Shown: positions 26,668-64,000 of the stretch, one piece after another
Layout: every line of letters starts with the position of its first letter
Numbering within the stretch: the first letter of the stretch is position 1
DNA from: Hymenobacter jeollabukensis
GTDB taxonomy: Bacteria; Bacteroidota; Bacteroidia; Cytophagales; Hymenobacteraceae
DNA: 64,000 nt
NCBI RefSeq assembly: GCF_005771675.1
Contig: NZ_VAJM01000003.1
Coordinates: forward strand, 310,001-374,000
Direction: 5' to 3'
Translations under genes and position numbers: made by a program
Notes under the pieces: model-generated
What the model was told of the DNA's origin: nothing
Databases searched by the model: none
What the model saw: only the letters and a program-made list of their open reading frames with translations

Positions 26668-28029
26668 TCAGCGCACCCGCACCTCGTGATTCTGAATCAT
26701 ACGGTAAATGGTGGACTTGCCGATCTTCAGCACGTGGGCCACGTGCAAAATATTGCCGTTGTGCGCGTCGAGGTGGCGCTGCACAATGCCCGCCACCTGC
26801 TCACGCAACGACTCCTGGCCGTTGGCTTCGGCCTCGGGATGCAGGGTGTTGCGCAAGGAAAGGTCCTTGGGCGTAATCGTGTCGCCCTCGGCCAGCACGG
26901 CGGCCAGCTCCACCACGGCCTTCAGCTCGCGCACGTTGCCGGGGAAGGTGTACTGCAGCAATTTCTGGCGGGCCGCCTCCGAGAAGTGCAGCAGCGGCAT
27001 GGAGTTTTGCAGGCAGAACTCGCGCAGAAAGGTTTCGGCCAGCAGCAGCAGGTCGCCGCCCCGCTCGCGCAGCGGCGGCAGCACGATGGGCAGGCCCAGC
27101 AGGCGGTAGTACAGGTCCTGGCGGAAGCGGCCTTCCTTCACCTCCTCGCCCAGGTCGCGGTGGGTGGCCACCATCAGGCGCGCGTCGAAGGGCACGGGCT
27201 TGGCGCCGCCCACGCGCATCAGCTCCCGCTCCTGCAGCACGCGCAGCAGCTTGGCTTGCAAGTTCAGGTCCAGCTCGGCAATTTCGTCGAGAAACAGGGT
27301 GCCGCCGTGGGCCTGCTCGAAGTAGCCCACGCGCCGGCTCACGGCCCCGGTGAAGGCGCCCTTTTCGTGCCCAAACAGCTCCGACTCGATCAGGTCGCGC
27401 GGCACGGCGGCCACGTTGACGGCCACGAACGGCTGGTCGCGTCGCGGCGACTGGTAATGAATGGCCTTGGCGGCCAGCTCCTTGCCGGTGCCCGTTTCGC
27501 CGCTCAACGACACGGTGATGCTGGTGCGGGCGGCCTTCTCGATCAGGGCCAGCAGCTCCTTGATCTTGGGGCTGGTGCCCACGATGGAGCGGGCCGGGTC
27601 GAATTTCTGCCCTACCTGCTGGCGCAGCTGGGCGTTTTCGCGGCGCAAGGCCAGCTGCTCGCCTACTTTCTGGGCGCTGAACCACAGCCGCTCGGCCGTG
27701 TCGGCTTCCTTCACGAAGTAGTCGTAGGCGCCCTTCTTGAGCATCTCGATGGCCGTGCTCACGTCTTCCTGGGCCGAAATGACGATGATCGGCACCTCCG
27801 GCAGCCGCTCACGCAGCTGGACCATGATCTGCTCGCCGGAGGCATCGGGCAGCGAGTAGTCAAGCGTAATCAGGTCCGGCGTCTCACTGGCTAGGTGCTT
27901 GAGGCATTCCTGCCCCGAAGCAAACTGCCGAACCGTGTAATCCGGGTTCTGCGTCAGTTTATAAGCCAGCAATTCGCTGTACCAGGCGTTGTCTTCAATA
28001 ATGAAAACGGTGAGGGAGGGCGAAGGCAT
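26668..28029 (-). CDS. NtrC-family sigma-54-dependent response regulator
   Basis: 453-aa transcription activator. Receiver at 1-120 with acidic pocket IIEDN and phospho-acceptor Asp57 (LITLDYSL); AAA+ domain at about 145-380 with Walker A SGETGTGKE (176-184), the sigma-54 contact loop GAFTGA (224-229) and Walker B GGTLFLDEI (242-250); Fis-type helix-turn-helix at the C-terminus (VAHVLKIGKSTIYRMIQNHEV). All residues needed for phosphorylation, ATP hydrolysis and sigma-54 contact are present. Upstream lie two perfect dyads that could be its own binding sites. Candidate targets in this window are the paired sigma-54-like promoters at 57.9 and 62.7 kb, though a regulator beyond the window's right edge is as likely. 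Confidence 0.93.
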   Translation of the reverse strand: MPSPSLTVFIIEDNAWYSELLAYKLTQNPDYTVRQFASGQECLKHLASETPDLITLDYSLPDASGEQIMVQLRERLPEVPIIVISAQEDVSTAIEMLKKGAYDYFVKEADTAERLWFSAQKVGEQLALRRENAQLRQQVGQKFDPARSIVGTSPKIKELLALIEKAARTSITVSLSGETGTGKELAAKAIHYQSPRRDQPFVAVNVAAVPRDLIESELFGHEKGAFTGAVSRRVGYFEQAHGGTLFLDEIAELDLNLQAKLLRVLQERELMRVGGAKPVPFDARLMVATHRDLGEEVKEGRFRQDLYYRLLGLPIVLPPLRERGGDLLLLAETFLREFCLQNSMPLLHFSEAARQKLLQYTFPGNVRELKAVVELAAVLAEGDTITPKDLSLRNTLHPEAEANGQESLREQVAGIVQRHLDAHNGNILHVAHVLKIGKSTIYRMIQNHEVRVR

Positions 28030-52895: not shown

Positions 52896-54293
52896 ATGAA
52901 ACGACTCCTCCTGGGATTAATGCTGGCCAGCGCCGCGCACGCGGCCGTCGGGCAGAAAGCGGCCAAGCCCGCCAAAACCAAGATTGACGCCAAGCTGATC
53001 GAGCGCGTCGAGAAGACCCTGGCCGACGACAAGCTGCGCGGCCGGGCCTTGAACACCGGCGCCCCCGAAGCCGCGCAGTTTCTGGCCGGCGAGTTCCGGC
53101 GCATCGGTTTGCAGCCGATGAACGGGCTGACCTCGTTTCTGCAGGAGTTTCCGGCCTACGAAGTCAAGACCACCGGCGCCACGGCCTCGCTGAACGGCGC
53201 GCCCGTCGCCGCCGACCACCTGCTGGTAACCTCGGGGCAGGAGCAGGTGAGCTGGACGAGCGGGCAAGCCGGGGCCCCGGCGGCGAAGGTATCGGCCGCG
53301 GACCCGGTGACGTGGACGGCCGGTAGCGGCGACGCAGCTCCGAAAGTGCTGGTCCTCGGCGCTCAGGCCGATTTTCGCAAGGAAGTGCTGCCCCTGCTGC
53401 GCGCCCCCAAAGGCAACGTGCTGGTCGTGCTCGATCCGGCCCACGCCCAGTGGTTTCAGCGCCTGGCGGGGCAGTTCAGCCACAGCGCCTTCCGCGCCGA
53501 AAAGCCCGCTCCCTACACCACGGCCCTGATCCTGGCCTCGGGCCCGGTGGCCGACGGCAGCAGCTACCAGCTGACGGCCAGCAGCCGCATCCGCGAAATG
53601 AAAATTGCCAACGTGGTGGGCGTGCTGCCCGGCCGCGACAAGGCCAAAGCCGCCGAGCAGGTGGTCTTTTCGGCCCACTACGACCACATCGGCATCCTGC
53701 CCCCGGTGGCCGGCGACTCCATTGCCAACGGCGCCGACGACGACGCCTCCGGCACTGCGGCGGTGGTAGCCCTGGCCCAGCACTTCAAGAAAACCAAGCA
53801 GAACGCCCGCACGCTCATCTTCGTGGCCTTCACGGCCGAGGAAATCGGCGGCTTCGGCTCCCAGTACTTCAGCAAGCAGCTCGACGCGGCCAAGGTCACG
53901 GCTATGTTCAACATCGAGATGATCGGCAAGGTGTCGAAGTTCGGCCCCGGCTCGGCCTTTATCACCGGCTTCGACAAGTCCGACTTCGGCCCGATTCTGC
54001 AGCGCAACCTGCAGGGCAGCACGTTCAAGTTCGAGCCCGACCCCTACCCCGAGCAGCAACTGTTCTACCGTTCCGACAACGCCACCCTGGCCCGCCTGGG
54101 CGTGCCCGCCCACAGCATCAGCACCGACCAGATTCCGACCGACAAGCTCTACCACTCCGTCGACGACGAGGTGGAAACGCTGGACCTGAAGAACATGACC
54201 ACGGTTATCGAGGCCATTGCCGTCAGTGCCCGGGGCATCGTGGCCGGCACCGATACGCCCACGCGCATCACGGACGCGGGGCAGCGGAAGTAG
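52896..54293 (+). CDS. Exported M28-family zinc aminopeptidase
   Basis: 465 aa from ATG 52896 with a signal peptide (LLGLMLASAAHAAVGQ). The M28 di-zinc site is visible: FSAHYDHIGI (first His, Asp), GADDDASGTAAVVALAQ (bridging Asp), FTAEEIGGFGSQYF (catalytic Glu plus ligand) and a C-terminal His in the NATLARLGVPAHSIST region. An intervening PA-like segment precedes the peptidase part. Expected periplasmic or secreted, releasing N-terminal residues from peptides. The ORF can be extended to 52815 but the signal peptide fixes the start. Confidence 0.9.
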   Translation: MKRLLLGLMLASAAHAAVGQKAAKPAKTKIDAKLIERVEKTLADDKLRGRALNTGAPEAAQFLAGEFRRIGLQPMNGLTSFLQEFPAYEVKTTGATASLNGAPVAADHLLVTSGQEQVSWTSGQAGAPAAKVSAADPVTWTAGSGDAAPKVLVLGAQADFRKEVLPLLRAPKGNVLVVLDPAHAQWFQRLAGQFSHSAFRAEKPAPYTTALILASGPVADGSSYQLTASSRIREMKIANVVGVLPGRDKAKAAEQVVFSAHYDHIGILPPVAGDSIANGADDDASGTAAVVALAQHFKKTKQNARTLIFVAFTAEEIGGFGSQYFSKQLDAAKVTAMFNIEMIGKVSKFGPGSAFITGFDKSDFGPILQRNLQGSTFKFEPDPYPEQQLFYRSDNATLARLGVPAHSISTDQIPTDKLYHSVDDEVETLDLKNMTTVIEAIAVSARGIVAGTDTPTRITDAGQRK

Positions 54294-54350
54294 GGAGCGG
54301 CTGGAGGCTGGCGGAAGTCTTAGCCGCTTGCGGCGAGACTTCCAGCCACG

Positions 54351-54426
54351 AAAACGGGAGCAAGTCTCTGACTTGCGCGGAACCGCACCGTGCGGCCGAC
54401 GCAAGTCAGAGACTTGCTCCCGTTTT
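54351..54426. repeat. Perfect 27-bp inverted repeat
   Basis: AAAACGGGAGCAAGTCTCTG and on (54351-54377) and its exact complement (54400-54426) flank a 22-nt loop, itself GC-rich and hairpin-prone (CCGCAC...GTGCGG). Followed by TTTTT, so it may double as a terminator for the peptidase gene; the arm sequence looks like an interspersed palindrome. Confidence 0.7.
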
Positions 54427-54488
54427 TTGGCCTGCAGTCATCGGGGCTGAAGCCCCTGAAGACTGCGGCCAGCGCGCTGGCTGCGCTT

Positions 54489-54695
54489 TTATCGTTCTGC
54501 CTTTAGTGTCTGCTCGATGTCGGCGGCGGCCTGCTGGCACCAGCTTAGCAGCGCGGCCGGGTCGGAGCCGGTGGTTTCCACCGTGCGGCCGGCCGCGTCG
54601 ACCAGCCGGGCGCGGTAGACGTTGTTGGATACTTCATCCAGAAACCAGCGCCAGCCGGGGCGGGCTACCTGGCCATTTTGCGGAACGGGCGCCAT
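54489..54695 (-). CDS. Small hypothetical protein of the DUF4132 operon
   Basis: 68 aa starting MAPVPQNGQVARPGWRWFLD, with YRARLVDAAGRTVETTG and a helical end. Its start is 2 nt after the DUF4132 stop, so it is cotranscribed. WGR-like flavour (R-x-W-x-x-D...YRARLVDAAGR) is weak and the protein is shorter than a WGR domain. Function unknown. Confidence 0.55.
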   Translation of the reverse strand: MAPVPQNGQVARPGWRWFLDEVSNNVYRARLVDAAGRTVETTGSDPAALLSWCQQAAADIEQTLKAER

Positions 54696-54697
54696 AA

Positions 54698-57367
54698 TTA
54701 GCTATTAATCTGCCGGGTGATGGTTTCGTCGGTGATTTTATCGTCGTCGGCCAGCAGCAGGGCTTTGCTGAGGATGATGCTCAGGATGGCGTCGCCCTCG
54801 AAGGGGAGGAACACGTCGGTGCCGGCCGTTTGCTTGGGGCTGCGGTCGGGCACGATGCAGAGGTACTGGTCGTTGGGCTCCATCAGGATGTTGCCCGAGC
54901 CCATATGAATCTTGTAGGTGCGCAGCTTGCCCCGCACGACCAGAAACTTGTCCTGCACCTCGCTCACTTTGCCGATTTTCAGCCGCGGTACCAGGCGCTG
55001 CAGGGCCAGCTTACGGTTTTTGGCCACTTCGCTCAGCTCGCCGAACGAGTAGCTTTCCCAGTAGTTGCGATACTGCACCAGCCCGCCGCCGTCGCGCCAG
55101 AGCGGGTCGTTGCCGACAGAGGCCACGCCCACGAACAAATCCACGTCGCGCATGACTTCGGAGAAGACCAGTGGCGGAATGTCGGTCAGCGGCAGCGGCT
55201 CCTCGCCCTGCAGGCGGGTGAAGCGCAGCTGGTCGGTGCTGACGTAGTGCCAGATGCCGGTGTCGTTCCAGGCCCCGTCGGCGTTGACTTCGCTCACCCA
55301 GAACTCGGCCCGCAAATCGTGCGCCGGCAGGCTCAGCTGCGCCGCGTCCGACTCGTAGCCCTTGTCGTAAGCGCCCATGAGGCTGTAGCGCCAGCCGCGC
55401 AGCTTGGCCAGGGAGTTGAACTGGTGCTGCTTCAGCACGTGGGCGGCCATGCGGTTGGAGTAGGTGCGGGTGCGCTCCTCCGGCGGGGTGAGCAGGTACA
55501 CCTCCCGGAACGCCTGCTTCAAGGGCTGCCGCAGCTCCCGGCGCTCCAGCAGCCCGCGCCAGGCCAGCACCTCGCCGGTGGGGGCCAGCACCGGATGCCA
55601 GAGCTGCACCTGGGCCTCGTCGGCGGGCGTGGCTACGGGCCGCTCCTGCGCGTCGTGCCAGGCGCCGTCGAGCCAGAGGGCGTCCTGGTGCGTGTCGTCG
55701 GCGTGGTAGAAGCGCCAGATCAGCCGCTCGGCCAGCTGGCTGACGAGGCCGTGTTCGAGGTAGTACTGGCGGAACCAGCGGTAGGGCATCCGGCGGCCTT
55801 CCACGAAGCTGCGGTCGAGCCGGTCGCGCTGGGTGGTGTAGGTCTGCTGGGCCTGGGTGTGGTCGGCTTTCAGCTCCTTCAGCTCCTCGGCGTGGCTTTG
55901 TTTCAGCGCCGCCGGGGCCGATTTCAGCGCCTTGTCGCCCTTGTGCCAGCTCACTTCGGCCTTGCCGTCGGTGAGCTGCAAGACCACGTGGTAGTCGCCG
56001 TAGTCGTAGTCGGCGCGGCCGTGGGTCAGCCCCGCCGTGGGCACGGCCATGTCCTCGATTTCGGCCGACGTGACGCCCAGCTTCTCCGCGCCCTTCTCGA
56101 TGTAGCGGCCGATCAGCTCCTGGGTATTGGCCTGCCGCACTTTGGGGCGCAGGCGCGAAAGTTGGGCCACGCCCGGCAATCCGCCCTGCGAGAGGGCCAG
56201 CAGGCAGGCATTGCCCAGCCCTACGGCCAGCGGACCGCGGCCCGGAATCTTGCGGTAGCACTTCTCGGTGAGGGCGGCCAGGTGCAGCAGCACGGCCGTG
56301 TCGGCCAGCGGCCCGAGCGTCCAGGCCAGGGCCTTGCCCACGTTCAGGCTGGGCTCCTGCAGAAAGTCCCACGACGAGTAGGTGTAGGTGCTGGCGTCGT
56401 TGTAGGTGTGGGTGTGCTGCCGCTCCTCCACCGGCAGGGCGGCCAGCAGCTGCAGCCACTGGTCGGCCTGCCGGCGCACCGCCTCGGGGCCGATGGCCGT
56501 GACGGCCGCGTCGACCTCCTTCATATACTTGGCCGAGGGCTGGCCGCCGCTGGCTTTCTGCCAGATTTGCAGCAGCTGCAGCCAGGGCAGAGTGCGGGCA
56601 TCGTCGGGAGCCAGACCGTCCACGAATTCGTTGAGCGCCTGACCCAGCGCGTCGCCGTCGGGAAAGCGCACGGTGGGCAGGGCGTTGTCACCTTCAGCGC
56701 CCAGCAGCTCCTGCAGCTTCACCCGGATCTTGACGGCCTGCCCGCTGCCGTAGCCGCTGGTCTGGTCTTCGGTAGCGGCCAGCACCTGGCTCAGGTAGGC
56801 GGTCAGCTGCTCGTCGGGGCCGTGCTTTTTCAGGTGCTTTTCCAGCTGGTTCAGTGTCAGCAGCACCGGCATGGTGCGCAGGGCGTCGCCGACGTCGCCC
56901 GGCTTCCTGAATTCCAGGCCGTAGAGCTGCAGCAGGCGCTGCCAGGCGGCGGGGCTCAGCTCCAGCGTGGAGCGCAGCAGCTGTTGCAGCAGGCCTTCGA
57001 GCAGGTAGCGGATCTGGTAATCCACCTGGCCGTAGTTGTCGCGGCAGAAGCGGATGGCCTCGGCGGCGGCCAGCGCCAGGCGGCCCTTGTAGGCGGCGTC
57101 CTGGTCCCGAATGCCCTGGGCGTAGGCCGGCACGTCGAGCAGCTTCATGTTGTAGTAGCTCATGCCGCGCTCCTCGATGTCGGTGAGCAGCTGGCTGAGC
57201 ACGGGCTTCATTTCCCGGGCTTCGGGGCTGCCGCCGTTCAGGGCTTTTTCAAACTCGCGGGCTTTCTTCTGGGTAGCGGGCATAGGGGAGGGGTTGGGAG
57301 AAACATCGGCAAACAGCCGGGCTGCGGCGTCCTGCGCGCGTTGCCAGAGTTCAGTCCAGGCGCTCAT
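54698..57367 (-). CDS. DUF4132 domain-containing protein
   Basis: 889-aa soluble protein. The C-terminal ~400 residues contain the DUF4132 signature: RQPLKQAFREVYLLTPPEERTRTYSNRMAAHVLKQHQF, LPAHDLRAEFWVSEVN, LPLTDIPPLVFSEVMRDVDLFVGVASVGNDP and YRNYWESYSFGELSEVAKNRKLAL. The N-terminal part is helical with tetratricopeptide-like character. DUF4132 proteins (MolR-related) are often found with WGR-domain and MoxR/VWA genes; their biochemical role is not established. Middle gene of a tight three-gene operon. Confidence 0.85.
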   Translation of the reverse strand: MSAWTELWQRAQDAAARLFADVSPNPSPMPATQKKAREFEKALNGGSPEAREMKPVLSQLLTDIEERGMSYYNMKLLDVPAYAQGIRDQDAAYKGRLALAAAEAIRFCRDNYGQVDYQIRYLLEGLLQQLLRSTLELSPAAWQRLLQLYGLEFRKPGDVGDALRTMPVLLTLNQLEKHLKKHGPDEQLTAYLSQVLAATEDQTSGYGSGQAVKIRVKLQELLGAEGDNALPTVRFPDGDALGQALNEFVDGLAPDDARTLPWLQLLQIWQKASGGQPSAKYMKEVDAAVTAIGPEAVRRQADQWLQLLAALPVEERQHTHTYNDASTYTYSSWDFLQEPSLNVGKALAWTLGPLADTAVLLHLAALTEKCYRKIPGRGPLAVGLGNACLLALSQGGLPGVAQLSRLRPKVRQANTQELIGRYIEKGAEKLGVTSAEIEDMAVPTAGLTHGRADYDYGDYHVVLQLTDGKAEVSWHKGDKALKSAPAALKQSHAEELKELKADHTQAQQTYTTQRDRLDRSFVEGRRMPYRWFRQYYLEHGLVSQLAERLIWRFYHADDTHQDALWLDGAWHDAQERPVATPADEAQVQLWHPVLAPTGEVLAWRGLLERRELRQPLKQAFREVYLLTPPEERTRTYSNRMAAHVLKQHQFNSLAKLRGWRYSLMGAYDKGYESDAAQLSLPAHDLRAEFWVSEVNADGAWNDTGIWHYVSTDQLRFTRLQGEEPLPLTDIPPLVFSEVMRDVDLFVGVASVGNDPLWRDGGGLVQYRNYWESYSFGELSEVAKNRKLALQRLVPRLKIGKVSEVQDKFLVVRGKLRTYKIHMGSGNILMEPNDQYLCIVPDRSPKQTAGTDVFLPFEGDAILSIILSKALLLADDDKITDETITRQINS

Positions 57368-57378
57368 CGACCAATCAA

Positions 57379-57774
57379 TCAGCCGCCGACCAGCGGGGTG
57401 AGCTTCACGAACGAGGCCGTGGCGCCGGCGCCCAGCCAGATCGGCTCGTCGAGGCTTTCCACCTGCCGGTCGTTGACGAGGATAAAGTAGCCGTTCTGCT
57501 GAAAGGCCTCCAGCGCCCGGTACAGCTGCTTTTCGGCGTCGATGAGGTGGTGCTTTTTCAGCCGGTAGCCGTTGAGCACCCGCTCCGAATCGGTGGGCTG
57601 CACCAGGCCCGAGAAGACGTCGTCGTTGCGCTGGTTGTAGGCCGCTACTTCCTGGCGCACGCGCTGCTCGATCAGCTCGCGCACGGTGATGGTTTCCTGG
57701 GCCAGCTCCAGCGCCAGGCGGTGCAGGACGGCGCCGGTGGCCGTTTCGTCCTGAATCAGCAAGGTGTTTGTCAT
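57379..57774 (-). CDS. Hypothetical protein, first gene of the DUF4132 operon
   Basis: 131 aa, starting MTNTLLIQDETATG. A helical region (VLHRLALELAQETITVRELIEQRVRQEVAAYNQ) is followed by KKHHLIDAEKQLYRALEAFQQNGYFILVNDRQVESLDEPIWL, which has the shape of a small beta-grasp or ligand fold. No family assigned. It ends 11 nt before the DUF4132 start, so the two are cotranscribed and may function together. Confidence 0.65.
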   Translation of the reverse strand: MTNTLLIQDETATGAVLHRLALELAQETITVRELIEQRVRQEVAAYNQRNDDVFSGLVQPTDSERVLNGYRLKKHHLIDAEKQLYRALEAFQQNGYFILVNDRQVESLDEPIWLGAGATASFVKLTPLVGG

Positions 57775-57875
57775 GGCTTGTTTGCTAAATTATTTAGCTT
57801 TTTGCTAATGTACGACGTTTGGCCGAAACCGAAGCACTCAGCCGCTGCTATTTAGCCTTGACGAGCTGAGCCGTT

Positions 57876-57911
57876 GTTCGGTTCTGCCGCCGGCCACCGG
57901 CAGAACCGAAC
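57876..57911. terminator. Hairpin upstream of the efflux promoter
   Basis: GTTCGGTTCTGCCG and CGGCAGAACCGAAC form a 14-bp stem around CCGGCCAC. It lies between the divergent DUF4132 operon and the hlyD promoter; no T-run follows, so its role is unclear (insulator or repeat). Confidence 0.4.
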
Positions 57912-58060
57912 ACAGTGTCCGGAAGCGGACAGAATTTGCCACGTCGCCAGCGCAATTGTTAATTGTTAATTACTCATTATTAATGACTTAAGAGTTTGGC
58001 ATTGGGCTTGGCTACTATCCAGCAGAACCGACCCCAATCCGAACGAAAATGGACAGAGCC
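57906..58060 (+). promoter_or_regulatory. Sigma-54-like promoter with upstream dyad, copy A (hlyD)
   Basis: Perfect dyad TGTCCG-GAAG-CGGACA (57916-57931), an AT-rich spacer, then TTGGCATTGGGCTTGGCT (57996-58013), matching TGGCAC-N5-TTGCW except T for C at the first element and G for C at the -12 pair. A conserved block TCCGAACGAAAATGGACA lies at 58038-58055 across the start codon. Dyad to -24 element is 81 bp. Every one of these elements recurs with equal spacing at 62671-62825. The predicted transcript would start near 58023. Confidence 0.6.
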
Positions 58061-59293
58061 ATATCCTCCGCCACCCAGGCCCGCCGCCGCCGCCAGCGCT
58101 GGCTCGGGGCCACGGCCGTGCTGCTGCTGCTGGCCGGCGCGCTGTGGGCCTTTCGCGGCGCGCTCAAGCCCAGCATCAGCCAGAACGAGCTGCTGACGGC
58201 CCCGGTGGAAACCGGCGACGTGGAAGCCTCGCTCACGGCCACCGGCCTCATCATCCCGGCCCACGAAGCGGTGGTGACCAGCCCCATCCAGTCGACCATC
58301 CGGCGGGTGCTGCTGACGGCCGGCGCGCGGGTGCAGCCGGGCCAGACCATCGTGGAGCTCGACAAGGAGCTGACCAGCACGGCCCTGGGCAAGCTGCAGG
58401 ACGAGCAGCTGCAGAACCAAAACAAAAGCTCGGTGCTGCAGCTCTCGCTGGAGCGCAGCCTGAACGATTTGGAGTCGCAGGAGCAGGTGCAGCAGGAGAA
58501 GGTGCGCAGCCTGCAGTCGGGCCTGCGCGACGAGCAGCACCTGCTCCGCATCGGTTCGGGCACCCCGGAGGCGGTGCGTCAGGCCGAGCTGAACCTGAAG
58601 ATTGCCGAACTGGAGCTGCAGCGCGTGCGCCGGCAGATCCGCAACCAGCGCCAGTCGAACCAGGCCGATGAGCGCGGCCTGGGCTACACCATGCAGATTC
58701 AGCAGCGCAGCATCCAGGAGCTGGCCGGCAAGCTGCGCCAGGCCAACATCAGCGCCGACCAGGCCGGGGTGCTCACCTGGGTCAACGAGGACATCGGCTC
58801 GACGGTGAGCCAGGGCCAGGTCATTGCCCGCGTGGCCGATCTGTCGTCGTTCCGGGTGCGCGGCACCATTGCCGATACCTACGCCGACTCCCTGCACCTG
58901 GGCGACCCGGTGGTGGTGCGCCTGAACGGCACCGACCTGCGCGGCACCATCAGCTCCATCAGCCCGGCGGTGGAGAAGAACGTGGTGACTTTCTACGCCC
59001 AGCTCGACGACCACCACCACCCGGCCTTGCGCGCCAACCTGCGCGCCGACGTGTTCGTGGTGACGCGGGCCCACCACCAGGTGCTGCGCCTCAAGAACGG
59101 CCCCTTCTTCCAGGGCGGGCGCGAGCAGGTGGTGTTCGTGGTGCAGGACGGCCAGGCCCTGCGCCGCACCGTGCGCCTGGGCGATTCCAACTTCGACTAC
59201 GTGCAGGTCATCAGCGGCCTGCGCGCCGGGGAGCAGGTCGTCATCAGCGACACGAAAAACTACGAAGAAGCCCCCGCGCTGACGATTAAGTAG
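58049..59293 (+). CDS. HlyD/MacA-family periplasmic adaptor of the efflux pump
   Basis: 414 aa linking an inner-membrane ABC pump to TolC. An N-terminal membrane helix (WLGATAVLLLLAGALWAF) is followed by the barrel-sandwich hybrid (QSTIRRVLLTAGARVQPGQTIVELD), a ~110-residue coiled-coil hairpin (about 115-235), the second half of the lipoyl-like part (AGVLTWVNEDIGSTVSQGQVIARVADLS), a beta-barrel and a C-terminal membrane-proximal domain. The MacA-type order of domains is complete. Transcribed from the copy A promoter. Confidence 0.88.
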   Translation: MDRAISSATQARRRRQRWLGATAVLLLLAGALWAFRGALKPSISQNELLTAPVETGDVEASLTATGLIIPAHEAVVTSPIQSTIRRVLLTAGARVQPGQTIVELDKELTSTALGKLQDEQLQNQNKSSVLQLSLERSLNDLESQEQVQQEKVRSLQSGLRDEQHLLRIGSGTPEAVRQAELNLKIAELELQRVRRQIRNQRQSNQADERGLGYTMQIQQRSIQELAGKLRQANISADQAGVLTWVNEDIGSTVSQGQVIARVADLSSFRVRGTIADTYADSLHLGDPVVVRLNGTDLRGTISSISPAVEKNVVTFYAQLDDHHHPALRANLRADVFVVTRAHHQVLRLKNGPFFQGGREQVVFVVQDGQALRRTVRLGDSNFDYVQVISGLRAGEQVVISDTKNYEEAPALTIK

Positions 59294-59308
59294 CGCGAAA
59301 GAACGACC

Positions 59309-59546
59309 AGCTCCCCTCCTCAGATGAGGAGGGGACGCCAAGCCGCCAGGCTTGGCTGGGGTGGTTGACGGGCGTCCGCGCCGTCAGAGGGTAACCCCGC
59401 CTCCAGTCGGATCAGCGCCTTCTGCCTCAACCAAGCCCGCCGAAATCAGCACGGTTGCCGATGGTCTAAACAACGTCAGCAACGACGCAACCATCCCCGC
59501 TTCGGCTGACGCCGAAGCATCCCCTCCTCAGCTGAGGAGGGGAGTT
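59309..59546. repeat. MITE-like repeat, copy 2 (between hlyD and tolC)
   Basis: About 238 bp with ends AGCTCCCCTCCTCAGATGAG and the complement of GCTGAGGAGGGGAGTT, plus internal CTTGGCTGGGGTGGTTG and AACAACGTCAGCAACGACGC shared with the element at 48338. No ORF. Inserted in the efflux operon. Confidence 0.75.
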
Positions 59547-59632
59547 TTCCGCCACACTGCTCCCGCGCCGCCTCACTGCCTGCTCCACCGATGCTCGTAA
59601 CTGCCCAACGCTCCGCCCTGCCTTTCTGCGCT

Positions 59633-61168
59633 ATGAAAACCCTTTCGTTTTACCTGGATGTGCTGCGCCTCTGGCTGCTGATGGTGAGCATCGTGGCCCT
59701 GCTGCTGCTGATTTTTGCTCCGAAGGTGCTGCTGGCCCAGGAGCGGCCCGCCGACCGCCGCGCGCCCCAGGCCGCCCTGACTTTGCCGCAGGTCATCGAC
59801 CTGACGCTGGTGCAGTCGGCGGTGGCCAAGCAGGCGCACACCAACCGCGAAACCAGCCTCTGGCAGTACCGCTCGTTCCGGGCCGACTACAAGCCGCTGC
59901 TGGCCATCGACGGGGTGCTGCCCAACTACTCGCGCACCATTCTGGCCGTGCAGCAACCCGACGGCACCACCAACTTCCGTTACGTGCGCATCAACACCTC
60001 GAACGTGGGCGCCACCGTCACGCAGGGCATCGGGCTGACGGGCGGCAAGGTCACGGTGGGCAGCACCCTGCAGCGCTTCGACAGCTTCGAAGGGGCCGGG
60101 CAGCGGCTCTACAACAGCAACCCGGTGGCCATCGGCCTGAGCCAGCCCCTGGGCGGGTTCAACCAGCTGAGCTGGAACAAGCGCATCGAGCCGCTGCGCT
60201 ACCAGGAAAGCCAGCGCCAGTACGTGGAGGAGCGCGAAACCATTGCCCGCCGCGTCACGGAGCTGTATTTCGACGTGCTGCTGCAACAGGTGAATGCCCA
60301 GGTGGCCCGCCAGAACCTGCGCGCCAGCGAAGAGCTGCTGCGCACCGGCCGCGAAAAAAGCAAACTGGGCCGCCTCTCCGAAAACGACCTGCTGCTGCTG
60401 GAGCTGAACATGCTCAACGCCCGCCAGGCCGAAATGCAGGCCAGCGTGGATGCCCAGAACGCGGCCCTGCAGCTCAAGGGCTACACCGGCCTCACCATCG
60501 ACCCCACGGCCGCGCTGGACGTGCCCGGCGCCGCCCCGCTGCTGAGCGTGACGCCCGCGGCGGCCCTGCAGCAGGCCCGGCAGTACCGCCGCGAGGGGCT
60601 GATGTTTCAGCGCCGCCTGCTGGAAGCCGACCGCAACGTGGCCCAGGCCAAGGGCACCACGGGCTTCCAGGCCAACCTGACGGCCTCCTTCGGCCTGACC
60701 AGCAGCGCCGAGCAGTTCGCGGGCTCCTACGTCAACCCCGCCGACCAGCAGCAGGTGCGCCTGGGCTTCGCCGTGCCCATCGTGGACTGGGGCAAGACCC
60801 GCGCGGCCGTGAAAACCGCCGAGCTGGCCCGGCAGCAGGCCCGCGTGACGGTGGAGCAGGAGCAGCTGACCTTCGAGCAGTCGGTGCTGAGCCAGGCCGG
60901 GCAGCTGGACGCGCTGAACCAGCAGCTGCAGCTGGCCGCCCGCGCCGACTCCCTCTCGCAGCGCCGCTACGACATTGCCCAGGCCACCTACAAAGTCGGC
61001 CGCATCACCCTCAACGACCTCAACATTGCCCAGGGCGAAAAGGACCGCGCCAAGCGCGGCTACGTGGCCGCCCTGCGCGCCTGCTGGGTGGCCTACTACC
61101 AACTGCGCACCCTCACGCTCTACGACTTCGAGCACCAGCAGCCGCTGCTGACGGCGCAGACGGAGTAG
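59633..61168 (+). CDS. TolC-family outer-membrane efflux protein
   Basis: 511 aa from ATG 59633. The N-terminal hydrophobic segment (LWLLMVSIVALLLLIFAPKVLLAQ) acts as a signal. Two OEP repeats follow, with long helices (QESQRQYVEERETIARRVTELYFDVLLQ; QQARVTVEQEQLTFEQSVLSQAGQLDAL) and short beta-strands (PVAIGLSQPLGGFNQ; RLGFAVPIVDWGKTRAAV). It forms the trimeric outer-membrane channel of the pump with the HlyD protein. Confidence 0.88.
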   Translation: MKTLSFYLDVLRLWLLMVSIVALLLLIFAPKVLLAQERPADRRAPQAALTLPQVIDLTLVQSAVAKQAHTNRETSLWQYRSFRADYKPLLAIDGVLPNYSRTILAVQQPDGTTNFRYVRINTSNVGATVTQGIGLTGGKVTVGSTLQRFDSFEGAGQRLYNSNPVAIGLSQPLGGFNQLSWNKRIEPLRYQESQRQYVEERETIARRVTELYFDVLLQQVNAQVARQNLRASEELLRTGREKSKLGRLSENDLLLLELNMLNARQAEMQASVDAQNAALQLKGYTGLTIDPTAALDVPGAAPLLSVTPAAALQQARQYRREGLMFQRRLLEADRNVAQAKGTTGFQANLTASFGLTSSAEQFAGSYVNPADQQQVRLGFAVPIVDWGKTRAAVKTAELARQQARVTVEQEQLTFEQSVLSQAGQLDALNQQLQLAARADSLSQRRYDIAQATYKVGRITLNDLNIAQGEKDRAKRGYVAALRACWVAYYQLRTLTLYDFEHQQPLLTAQTE

Positions 61169-61431
61169 GTACAGCCAAGTCGTTTTTTAGCCATTTGCCA
61201 GGGCCCAGAGTCGTGTATCGGCTTTGGGCCTTGGTGCTTACTGCCAAAGCCAGACAGCCGGATTTCTGACGCCGTAATGCTGAGTTAATTATATTTAAAA
61301 TATAAATAGTTGTACTAAATTTATTTCAACTATCTTCATTTCACTTCCGAGTGAGCTTGGTCCGGTGCTGCTAGCGACCGGAGCCCCCTGTTGCCTGCGT
61401 GCGTAGACCAACCCGTGTTTTCCCTCCAATC

Positions 61432-62541
61432 ATGCGTAAGATTAGCCTCGTCTGCCTGACGGTGGCCGCCCTGTGGGTAGCCGGCTGCCAGAAAACCGAC
61501 CTCACCCCCCAACCAGCACCTACCGCAACCCTGAGCGCCGACGTGGCCACGTGCACGCCCGACGTCATTTCCTTCGACAACGTGGCGGCGGGCACCCGGC
61601 CCACCTCCATCAACAGCACCGGCGGCGTGGCGGTGGGCGTCGAAAGCCAGAATCCGCACTACGCCTTCGACCGCGAAGCCATTGTGTTCCGCAGCAGCCC
61701 CACGGTGTCGTCGTTGGAAGACACGGACCTGGGCAGCCCCAACAGTGCGTTTGGGGGCGTGGGCATCGGTTTCGGTGGCGGCCCAGGGCCCTTCCAGAAT
61801 ACCACGGCCTTGGGCAACATCCTGGTGCTGCATAACTTTTTCAGCTACGACGCGAACGTGGAGCCCAACGACGACGACTTTAACGAGTTTGAGACGCCCG
61901 GCACTATTGGCTTCAATTTCAGCAGCCCGGTCACGGCCACCTCGATTACCGTCATCGACGTGGAATACGCCTACAACAGCGAGCATGAATACGGCTACGT
62001 GAAGCTGTACGCCAGCAAAGGCGGTGCCCAGCTCGGCGGGCAGTACAACTTCAGCGACGCCGGCCCCAACGGGGTGGAAGTGGTAAGCCTGGGCAACACG
62101 CCGGGCGTCAGATACATCGAAGTAACCATCGGCGGCTCCATGGGCCTCGACAACCTGCGCTTCTGCCGGCCCGCTCCCCCGACTAGTCATTGCACGCTCA
62201 CCCAGGGCTACTGGAAAAACCACGACTGGCCGGTGCAGGCGCTGACCTTGGGCGGCACCACGTACACCCGCACCCAACTGCTGGCCGTGCTGAACACGCC
62301 GGTGCGCGGCAACGGGCTGGTGGCGCTGGCCTACCAGCTGATTGCCGCCAAGCTGAACCTGGCGAATGGCAGCGACGGCAGCGTGATTAGCGCCGACCTG
62401 GCCGCCGCCGATGCCATGTTTGTGGGCAAGAATATGGCCGCCAGTCCGCTGCCCAGCGTGCCGACCGCCCAAACCAGCACCCTGAGCGGCCGCCTCGACG
62501 ACTACAACAACGGCGTCATCGGGCCGGGCCACTGCAACTAA
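61432..62541 (+). CDS. Lipoprotein with choice-of-anchor-like and TQGYWKNH segments
   Basis: 369 aa from ATG 61432. Lipoprotein signal with lipobox VAGC (residues 16-19). A beta-sandwich of about 230 residues (ISFDNVAAGTRPTS, GIGFGGGPGPFQNTTALGN, GFNFSSPVTATSITVIDVEYAY, VEVTIGGS-like end) resembles choice-of-anchor domains, followed by a C-terminal ~125-residue part starting CTLTQGYWKNHDWP, a motif seen in extracellular proteins of Bacteroidota and Actinobacteria. It lies between the efflux genes, has an AT-rich promoter region of its own and ends in a terminator. Role in the pump is not evident. Confidence 0.7.
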   Translation: MRKISLVCLTVAALWVAGCQKTDLTPQPAPTATLSADVATCTPDVISFDNVAAGTRPTSINSTGGVAVGVESQNPHYAFDREAIVFRSSPTVSSLEDTDLGSPNSAFGGVGIGFGGGPGPFQNTTALGNILVLHNFFSYDANVEPNDDDFNEFETPGTIGFNFSSPVTATSITVIDVEYAYNSEHEYGYVKLYASKGGAQLGGQYNFSDAGPNGVEVVSLGNTPGVRYIEVTIGGSMGLDNLRFCRPAPPTSHCTLTQGYWKNHDWPVQALTLGGTTYTRTQLLAVLNTPVRGNGLVALAYQLIAAKLNLANGSDGSVISADLAAADAMFVGKNMAASPLPSVPTAQTSTLSGRLDDYNNGVIGPGHCN

Positions 62542-62580
62542 GCCGCGACGACGACACCGCGCACTACTTCTGACATGCTG

Positions 62581-62611
62581 AAAAGGCCGGGCGCGCAGTC
62601 CGGCCTTTTTT
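62581..62611 (+). terminator. Intrinsic terminator of the lipoprotein gene
   Basis: AAAAGGCCGG pairs with CCGGCCTTTT, followed by TT. Confidence 0.85.
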
Positions 62612-62670
62612 GTGGCCCTGCCCGGCCGGACGGAGCGGGGGTGCGGATGCGGTCAAGGGGCGTGGCATTT

Positions 62671-62825
62671 CCGAACACCGTGTCCGATTATGGACAATAT
62701 TTTAGACTGAACAAGTAGTTTATTGCGTATTAAAATACTGATTATTAGTATTTTATATAAATGGCACGCCGCTTGGCTACCTATACCCGGCCCGGTGCCC
62801 GATCCGCACGAAACCGGACAGCGCC
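62671..62825 (+). promoter_or_regulatory. Sigma-54-like promoter with upstream dyad, copy B (ABC transporter)
   Basis: CCGAACACCGTGTCCG (62671-62686) equals copy A at 15 of 16 bases; dyad TGTCCG-ATTA-TGGACA (62681-62696); AT-rich spacer; -24/-12 element TGGCACGCCGCTTGGC (62762-62777), which keeps the TGGCACG of the sigma-54 consensus; conserved block TCCGCACGAAACCGGACA (62803-62820). Distances dyad to -24 (81) and -24 to block (41) are the same as in copy A. It rules out ATG 62761 as the gene start. Confidence 0.65.
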
Positions 62826-62871
62826 GCCCTTATCCGAAACCCCTTTCTCAGCCCAAACTCCCCCAAGCCCT

Positions 62872-63603
<732 letters not shown>

Positions 63604-63613
63604 GCCCGCCAGC

Positions 63614-63727
63614 CCGTCATGTCGAGCGAAGTCGAGACATCTCGCCGGATAGTAATCTGCTCGTTGAGCGGGCAAGTTGCTATCGGACGTCAGCACGCGA
63701 GATGTCTCGACAGGCTCGACATGACGG
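63614..63727. repeat. Palindromic element between ATPase and permease genes
   Basis: 114 bp with ~31-bp inverted arms: CCGTCATGTCGAGCGAAGTC... and the complement of CCGTCATGTCGAGCCTGTCG...; both end in GAGACATCTCGC. Interior unique. Typical of small interspersed palindromes in Bacteroidota. Confidence 0.75.
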
Positions 63728-63766
63728 CCTCCCAAGCTTCCCCGCCCTCCCAAGTCCCCAAGCCCC

Positions 63767-64000
63767 ATGTTATTAAGCTATCTGAAACTCGCCTGGAAGG
63801 TGCTCCTGCGCCGCAAGTTCTTCACCTTCATCAGCCTCTTCGGCATCAGCTTCACCCTGATGGTGCTGCTGGTGGTGGTGGCCTTCTTCGACAACTCCTT
63901 CGGCGCGCACTACCCCGAGTCGCGCATCGACCGGCTCACCTTTGCCCAGTTCCTGCACGTCAAATTCAAGGACGGGGGCAACATGAACACGCCGCCCAGC
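63767..64000 (+). CDS. ABC transporter permease, partial (FtsX/MacB type)
   Basis: Runs off the right edge after 78 codons. Begins MLLSYLKLAWKVLLRRKFFT, then membrane helix ISLFGISFTLMVLLVVVAFF and the start of a periplasmic domain (GAHYPESRID). This is the typical N-terminus of a MacB-type permease that forms the pump with the preceding ATPase. Confidence 0.85.
   Translation, partial: MLLSYLKLAWKVLLRRKFFTFISLFGISFTLMVLLVVVAFFDNSFGAHYPESRIDRLTFAQFLHVKFKDGGNMNTPPS

Follow-up and report, generated by a model that had tools for sequence, protein, structure and literature searches.

How are the parts of an efflux pump switched on together when their genes lie behind two separate promoters? The question is raised by a locus at the end of a 64,000-nucleotide stretch of the Hymenobacter jeollabukensis genome (assembly GCF_005771675.1, contig NZ_VAJM01000003.1, positions 310,001 to 374,000 of the forward strand; ‘the window’, within which positions are counted below). 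Here one promoter region, P1, precedes hlyD and a second, P2, precedes an ABC ATPase gene. The two regions carry matching elements in matching register, and comparison of sequences makes it probable (roughly 85%) that both are sigma-54 promoters serving a single dedicated efflux regulon under NtrC-type activation.

All the elements lie on the plus strand. At P1 the main dyad TGTCCG-N4-CGGACA, the proposed enhancer, is an exact match at 57916..57931 and is preceded by a degenerate distal dyad with the right half CGAACA (57897..57912), recognised from a logo of 49 family sites. An AT-rich spacer with an IHF-like block (57978..57990) leads to a sigma-54-type core (57997..58014), made up of TGGCAT as the -24 element and TTGGCTA at 58008, with G as the -12 base. 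Reckoned from the -12 position, transcription would start at 58023, which would place the dyad centres at about -99.5 and -118.5. Further downstream, an imperfect dyad (58040..58055) reading aaaATGGACAg holds the hlyD ATG (58049). P2 repeats the arrangement, with a distal dyad from the same logo at 62662..62677, an exact main dyad TGTCCG-N4-TGGACA at 62681..62696, an IHF-like block matching a relaxed pattern at 62743..62755, a core of TGGCAC and TTGGCTA (62773) at 62762..62779, an expected start at 62788, and a downstream imperfect dyad at 62805..62820, in the leader ahead of the ATPase start. The distance from the start of the main dyad to the -24 element is 81 bases in both. Identical letters number 11/16 in the main dyad, 14/18 in the core and 13/16 in the downstream element, versus 30/65 in the spacer. 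The paired architecture is confirmed, as are two claims of a preliminary description of this DNA, that the same elements recur at the same spacing and that they are conserved between dissimilar spacers. Two of its elements are present on the plus strand but are better read in another way. The outer CCGAACAC would form the right half of a further, degenerate dyad located 19 bp upstream of the main dyad, and TCCG-N8-9-GGACA an imperfect dyad sharing the N4 geometry.

In the whole 6.18 Mb genome the exact dyad TGTCCG-N4-YGGACA occurs at P1 and P2 only (a third row of the search being P1 on the opposite strand), and the same is true of the exact core TGGCAY-N5-TTGGCTAC. Allowing two mismatches, the window holds 10 dyads against a shuffle mean of 9.97, which is chance level, and an unremarkable two cores against 0.75. 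The window by itself would therefore not have established the elements, and their proof comes from relatives. A pattern of dyad, 60-90 bases, -24 element, N5 and TTGS was found in six of eight genomes of the same genus. With 50-80 bases allowed, it gave 102 rows in 79 of the 204 genomes of the family Hymenobacteraceae and none for the reversed pattern used as control. The total length is 96 in 78 of the 80 rows from the organism's own genus and the Hymenobacter genus (g4), and 97 in the other two, though spacers of 50-80 bases were allowed. Among 41 loci (L034-L074), hlyD lies 37 bases behind the site in 17 and the ATPase gene, its start estimated 79-137 bases after TTGG, in 22, with neither in two; among 20 further loci, all 12 from Hymenobacter (g4) have hlyD or the ATPase, while a permease or ATPase gene is present in six of the eight that come from g5 and g6. 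Thus, the search in relatives proposed in the preliminary description, which would have counted absence of the paired elements against it, found them conserved ahead of the same genes. In a phylum sample a stricter pattern was present in 12/395 genomes, and in looser form the elements extend from the family to other phyla.

The logo, built from 49 distinct family sites including P1 and P2, gives a more detailed anatomy. Counting from the first T of the main dyad (0-15), CGAACA occupies -9 to -4, T is conserved at 19-21, TAA falls at 50-52, TGA at 58-60, A at 66, TT at 72-73, TGGCAY at 81 and TTGG at 92. In several Pontibacter-type sites (L081, L129, L135, L364, L366) the dyad is complete twice over, with 21 bp between the copies and spacings of 52/53 and 73/74, which supports assigning the upstream CGAACA to a second dyad as one of its halves. 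Mean identity between sites is 30% at positions 22-49 and 55% at 50-74. The latter block is thus better conserved than what surrounds it, although A and T are also more frequent there. IHF sites follow the pattern WATCAANNNNTTR; a relaxed form of it is found at position 62 in 28/49 sites, against 0 to 2 in 200 shuffled spacer sets.

The logo ends with the downstream imperfect dyad, whose GGACA falls at 135-139 in all 49 sites, although these had been selected for a GGACA anywhere in a stretch of about 35 bases and not for its place there. This GGACA might be merely the conserved beginning of HlyD (Met-Asp-Arg), its presence in P2 being a copy or a coincidence. An ATG does lie within the element in 21/49 sites, and several HlyD genes of distant taxa also open with ATGGAC. 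However, all 28 sites lacking the ATG keep GGACA in register, and the recognised gene behind such sites in L034-L074 is the ATPase, with its more distant start. The downstream site therefore seems to be conserved as DNA and not merely as Met-Asp codons, and an origin in the HlyD start is rather unlikely.

The base at -12 is an unusual feature of the cores. TGGCA at -24 and the N5 spacing to TTG are those of sigma-54 promoters, but the dinucleotide at -13/-12 is GG. A family search admitting A, C or T at -12 returned seven rows, all A or T, so that G stands in every one of the 102 rows of the family pattern; once tandem duplicates are taken out, the regulon in the family has G 98, T 4, A 2 and C 0, and a pump gene was recognised behind one (L348) of the six non-G promoters. 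The preliminary description had suggested that GG is a form of sigma-54 promoter specific to the clade, and here it needs correction. In Flavobacterium psychrophilum, lon belongs to the sigma-54 targets and its start has been mapped (PMC9723704), and 30 family lon loci (L313-L342) have TGGCAY-N5-TTG at a similar place with A in 24, C in 4, T in 2 and G in none; C is thus absent from 26/30. One of these loci also holds a poorer AGGCAT match with TTGG. Since the lon set has A, C and T but never G, bases other than C seem to be accepted at -12 in the clade, with G going with the efflux regulon, and GC at -13/-12 seems not to be a defining feature of its sigma-54 promoters. Could the -12 element instead be canonical, with the GC one base further on (TGGCAY-N6-TGGC)? 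TTGG is followed by C in 44/49 family sites, which would suit this explanation. But among 42 sites of other taxa C comes next in 26, A in 12, G in 3 and T in 1, leaving 16 without a GC, and the lon promoters retain N5 and have mostly TTGA. A shifted GC is quite unlikely.

A further alternative is that the cores are promoters for the primary or an extracytoplasmic function (ECF) sigma factor and the dyads operators of some other regulator. The lack of C at -12 speaks for this, as do three sigma-70-like matches in a consensus scan, two of them in P2. On the other side, TGGCAY-N5-TTG stands equally far from the dyad in 78/80 rows, no TAnnTTTG box, reported as the primary-sigma box of Flavobacterium (PMC9723704), was seen by eye in P1 or P2, and the cluster itself encodes a sigma-54 activator; the use of another sigma factor is accordingly very unlikely. 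It is scarcely credible that the main dyad and a T-rich stretch form a terminator for the upstream gene, since, although P2 scored as terminator-like (6-pair stem, 4-base loop and T stretch; seven such in the region against 4.5 in shuffles) and the T at logo positions 19-21 is conserved, the distance to the -24 element is fixed, copies of the same geometry lie upstream and downstream, the listed Pontibacter sites have no T stretch directly after the dyad, and a single dyad in Runella serves two divergent promoters.

NtrC-type activation of sigma-54 fits the position of the dyads, as enhancers of this type lie some 80-150 bp upstream and are often in tandem. It also fits the genes. P1 is followed by hlyD and a TolC-like gene, and P2 by the ATPase, two MacB/FtsX permeases, a response regulator and a histidine kinase. 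The response regulator has a receiver domain, an AAA+ sigma-54 interaction domain and a Fis-type helix-turn-helix, with the loop GAFTDA, as expected for the NtrC type, and the genome has one match for rpoN (4.2e-56). The proposal of the preliminary description that the layout is that of NtrC-type activation, with one enhancer-binding protein acting on both halves of the pump, is thus supported by the conservation ahead of the same genes, the dyad near -100, the regulator and kinase of the cluster, and the one rpoN found.

The regulator of the cluster is itself the candidate for binding the dyads, as suggested by co-occurrence and a common helix-turn-helix form. In a scan of named genomes, in which -12 could be C or G only and taxa were assigned from titles, at least 119 loci with at least 124 distinct sites were obtained. 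Among the matches listed, a cluster homolog lies just downstream of 81/124 sites (66/108 when Hymenobacter is left out), the share for randomly placed positions of these loci being 18%; 46 of the 47 loci with a recognised activator have the loop Asp of GAFTDA; and the helix form xGx[ST]RxxLYR occurs in 45/47, not being seen in the frames found for L092 and L181. Of the eight clear activators in the H. jeollabukensis genome, only L202 matches the cluster activator in both loop and helix form (the C-terminus of L196 excepted). The -12 base among the same matches is C in 13/13 Bacteroidales, G in 53/58 other Bacteroidota and 2/3 unresolved Bacteroidota, and C in 35/36 Proteobacteria and 11/14 of other phyla. 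In Runella and a similar genome (L107, L163, L170, L215), two divergent sigma-54-type promoters share a dyad, which lies 54 bases from one and 74 from the other, and in the three Runella loci the 74-base side leads to the response regulator gene.

Several observations weigh against two NtrC-activated sigma-54 promoters of a single regulon. GC at -13/-12 is missing from P1, from P2 and from the 98 of 104 family promoters that have GG. The strict IHF consensus is found at position 62 in only 4/49 sites, and not in the P1 block, which matches the relaxed pattern. Exact matches, the only kind searched for, were absent from two of the eight genomes of the genus and from 125 of the 204 of the family, and no cluster homolog was found behind the site in either g5 locus examined or in L034 and L044. 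The matches listed from named genomes include chance hits, and a shared helix form is not binding.

If P1 and P2 are nonetheless two NtrC-activated sigma-54 promoters, the switch most probably operates as follows. The kinase would phosphorylate the cluster regulator, dimers of which would occupy the tandem dyads (about -119 and -100) and then oligomerise. An IHF/HU-like bend at the IHF-like block would bring the regulator into contact with sigma-54 polymerase waiting at -24/-12. Expenditure of ATP would melt the DNA, so that hlyD-tolC and the ATPase-permease-permease(-regulator-kinase) genes are switched on together and adaptor, outer membrane factor and motor rise jointly. Positive feedback is likely, because P2 is followed on its own strand by the genes for regulator and kinase. 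The dyad near +25 could be a low-affinity site for the same regulator, a late ‘brake’ or tuning device once the regulator is abundant, though this is closer to a guess. A broader proposal, tentative and with odds somewhat short of even, is that sigma-54 in this branch of the Bacteroidota needs no C at -12, where the base would be a selected regulon mark (G for efflux, A for lon), and that together with the downstream dyad this makes an activator-and-brake switch, with an operator retained across Bacteroidota, Proteobacteria and Acidobacteria.

Other accounts of the -12 base were tried and rejected. The GAFTDA loop is not tied to it, as Asp loops accompany TTGC and TTGG promoters alike. In 31 RpoN sequences (one per genome, though some genomes have two or three), the helix tends to be STISRVSNSK-like in Bacteroidales with C, whereas most other Bacteroidota, with G, have STVSRVANSK. 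This trend is inseparable from ancestry and has exceptions: two Chitinophaga with C share their helix with one having G, the helix of an Acidobacterium with G resembles that of Proteobacteria, and Dyadobacter and the Kapabacterium also deviate. Nor is there a sign of a broad GG or GC regulon, TTGGCAC-N5-TTGG giving 5 matches against 4 for the reversed control in the H. jeollabukensis genome and TTGGCAC-N5-TTGC 3 against 3; each scan covered 100 family genomes, the remaining rows being similar by look but not summed. A recurrent sequence, TTGGCAC[AC]GGTTTTGC, was discarded because by eye it lies in the upstream coding frame in L284, L285, L302, L308 and L310. It is found in many family genomes and is a trap for sigma-54 pattern searches.

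NtrC-type sigma-54 promoters such as glnA and nifH have dyads near -100, TGGCA at -24, N5 to TTG and, in some, a bend site. P1 and P2 resemble them in the dyads, the -24 element and the N5 spacing, and may do so in the bend site, but differ in having G rather than C at -12, a fixed spacing and, near +25, one more dyad that covers the start codon.

The sigma-54 (SM4) promoters of F. psychrophilum, also a member of the Bacteroidota, are similar in their -24/-12 elements and in having lon among the targets, with starts mapped there, but the available text of that report (PMC9723704) contains no efflux operon or such dyad. A 2025 study (PMC12316311) predicts at class level that sigma-54 controls MacB/FtsX-type ABC permeases (COG0577), with enrichment in Bacteroidia among others; its consensus is TGGCACN5-7TTGCT, and in its available text no activator, operator or -12 variant is named for these permease genes. 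The GAFTDA variant activators of Desulfovibrio vulgaris, in which Asp in the sigma-54-contact loop was judged to preserve activity, share this Asp with the cluster regulator but have other targets, and no such operator appears in the corresponding part of the report (PMC4641369). XibR, another NtrC-family regulator, has a different motif (PMC5130282). No printed form of the dyad operator or the -12 variant was found among the open-licence PMC papers listed, and TGTCCG in one paper, taken as a possible operator report, was rejected since the letters belong to primers. For a widespread MacB-type pump there is now an operator together with a candidate activator and its targets, described in such a way that targets in further genomes can be predicted. 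The finding at -12 calls into question what textbooks treat as constant in sigma-54 promoters, and suggests why searches with a consensus ending in TTGC would miss the efflux regulon in Hymenobacter and its kin.

The genes themselves, all on the plus strand, make up a tripartite exporter with adaptor, outer membrane factor, MacB-type ATPase and permease, though not a MacA/MacB equivalog. The periplasmic adaptor HlyD (58049..59293, 414 amino acids; PF13437, 7.5e-15) is followed by a TolC-like outer membrane factor (59591..61168, 525 amino acids; PF02321, 6.4e-37) and, between this and P2, by an open reading frame of 380 amino acids (61399..62541) with no Pfam or NCBIfam match at E up to 0.001. 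The MacB/LolD-type ATPase (62872..63603, 243 amino acids; PF00005, 2e-36) is likely to start at the ATG at 62872, as a longer reading frame from 62761 would begin inside P2. The first MacB/FtsX permease begins at 63767 and extends beyond the window end at 64000 (L003 3768-5021; PF12704, PF02687); past that end lie the second permease, the NtrC-type regulator and the kinase (L003 5182-9548), the regulator at L003 6669-8057 (PF00072, PF00158, PF02954). A scan of 54000-64000 against Rfam gave no match. MacAB-TolC and the darobactin exporter DarBCD (NCBIfam) likewise combine an adaptor with a MacB-type ATPase and permease, but the scores of the present cluster are all below the curated cut-offs, and it encodes the ATPase and each of the two half-size permeases separately.

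A second pump cluster (L370; contig C15, 1-16000) has a kinase and a regulator, the latter 43% identical to that of the present cluster and again with GAFTDA. Neither TGTCC-N6-GGACA nor TGGCAY-N5-TTG was found at this paralogous pump, which may therefore use another operator and is possibly an insulated paralog. The window itself encodes, on the minus strand at 26668-28029, another response regulator with a sigma-54 interaction domain, in this case with a GAFTGA loop (L201).

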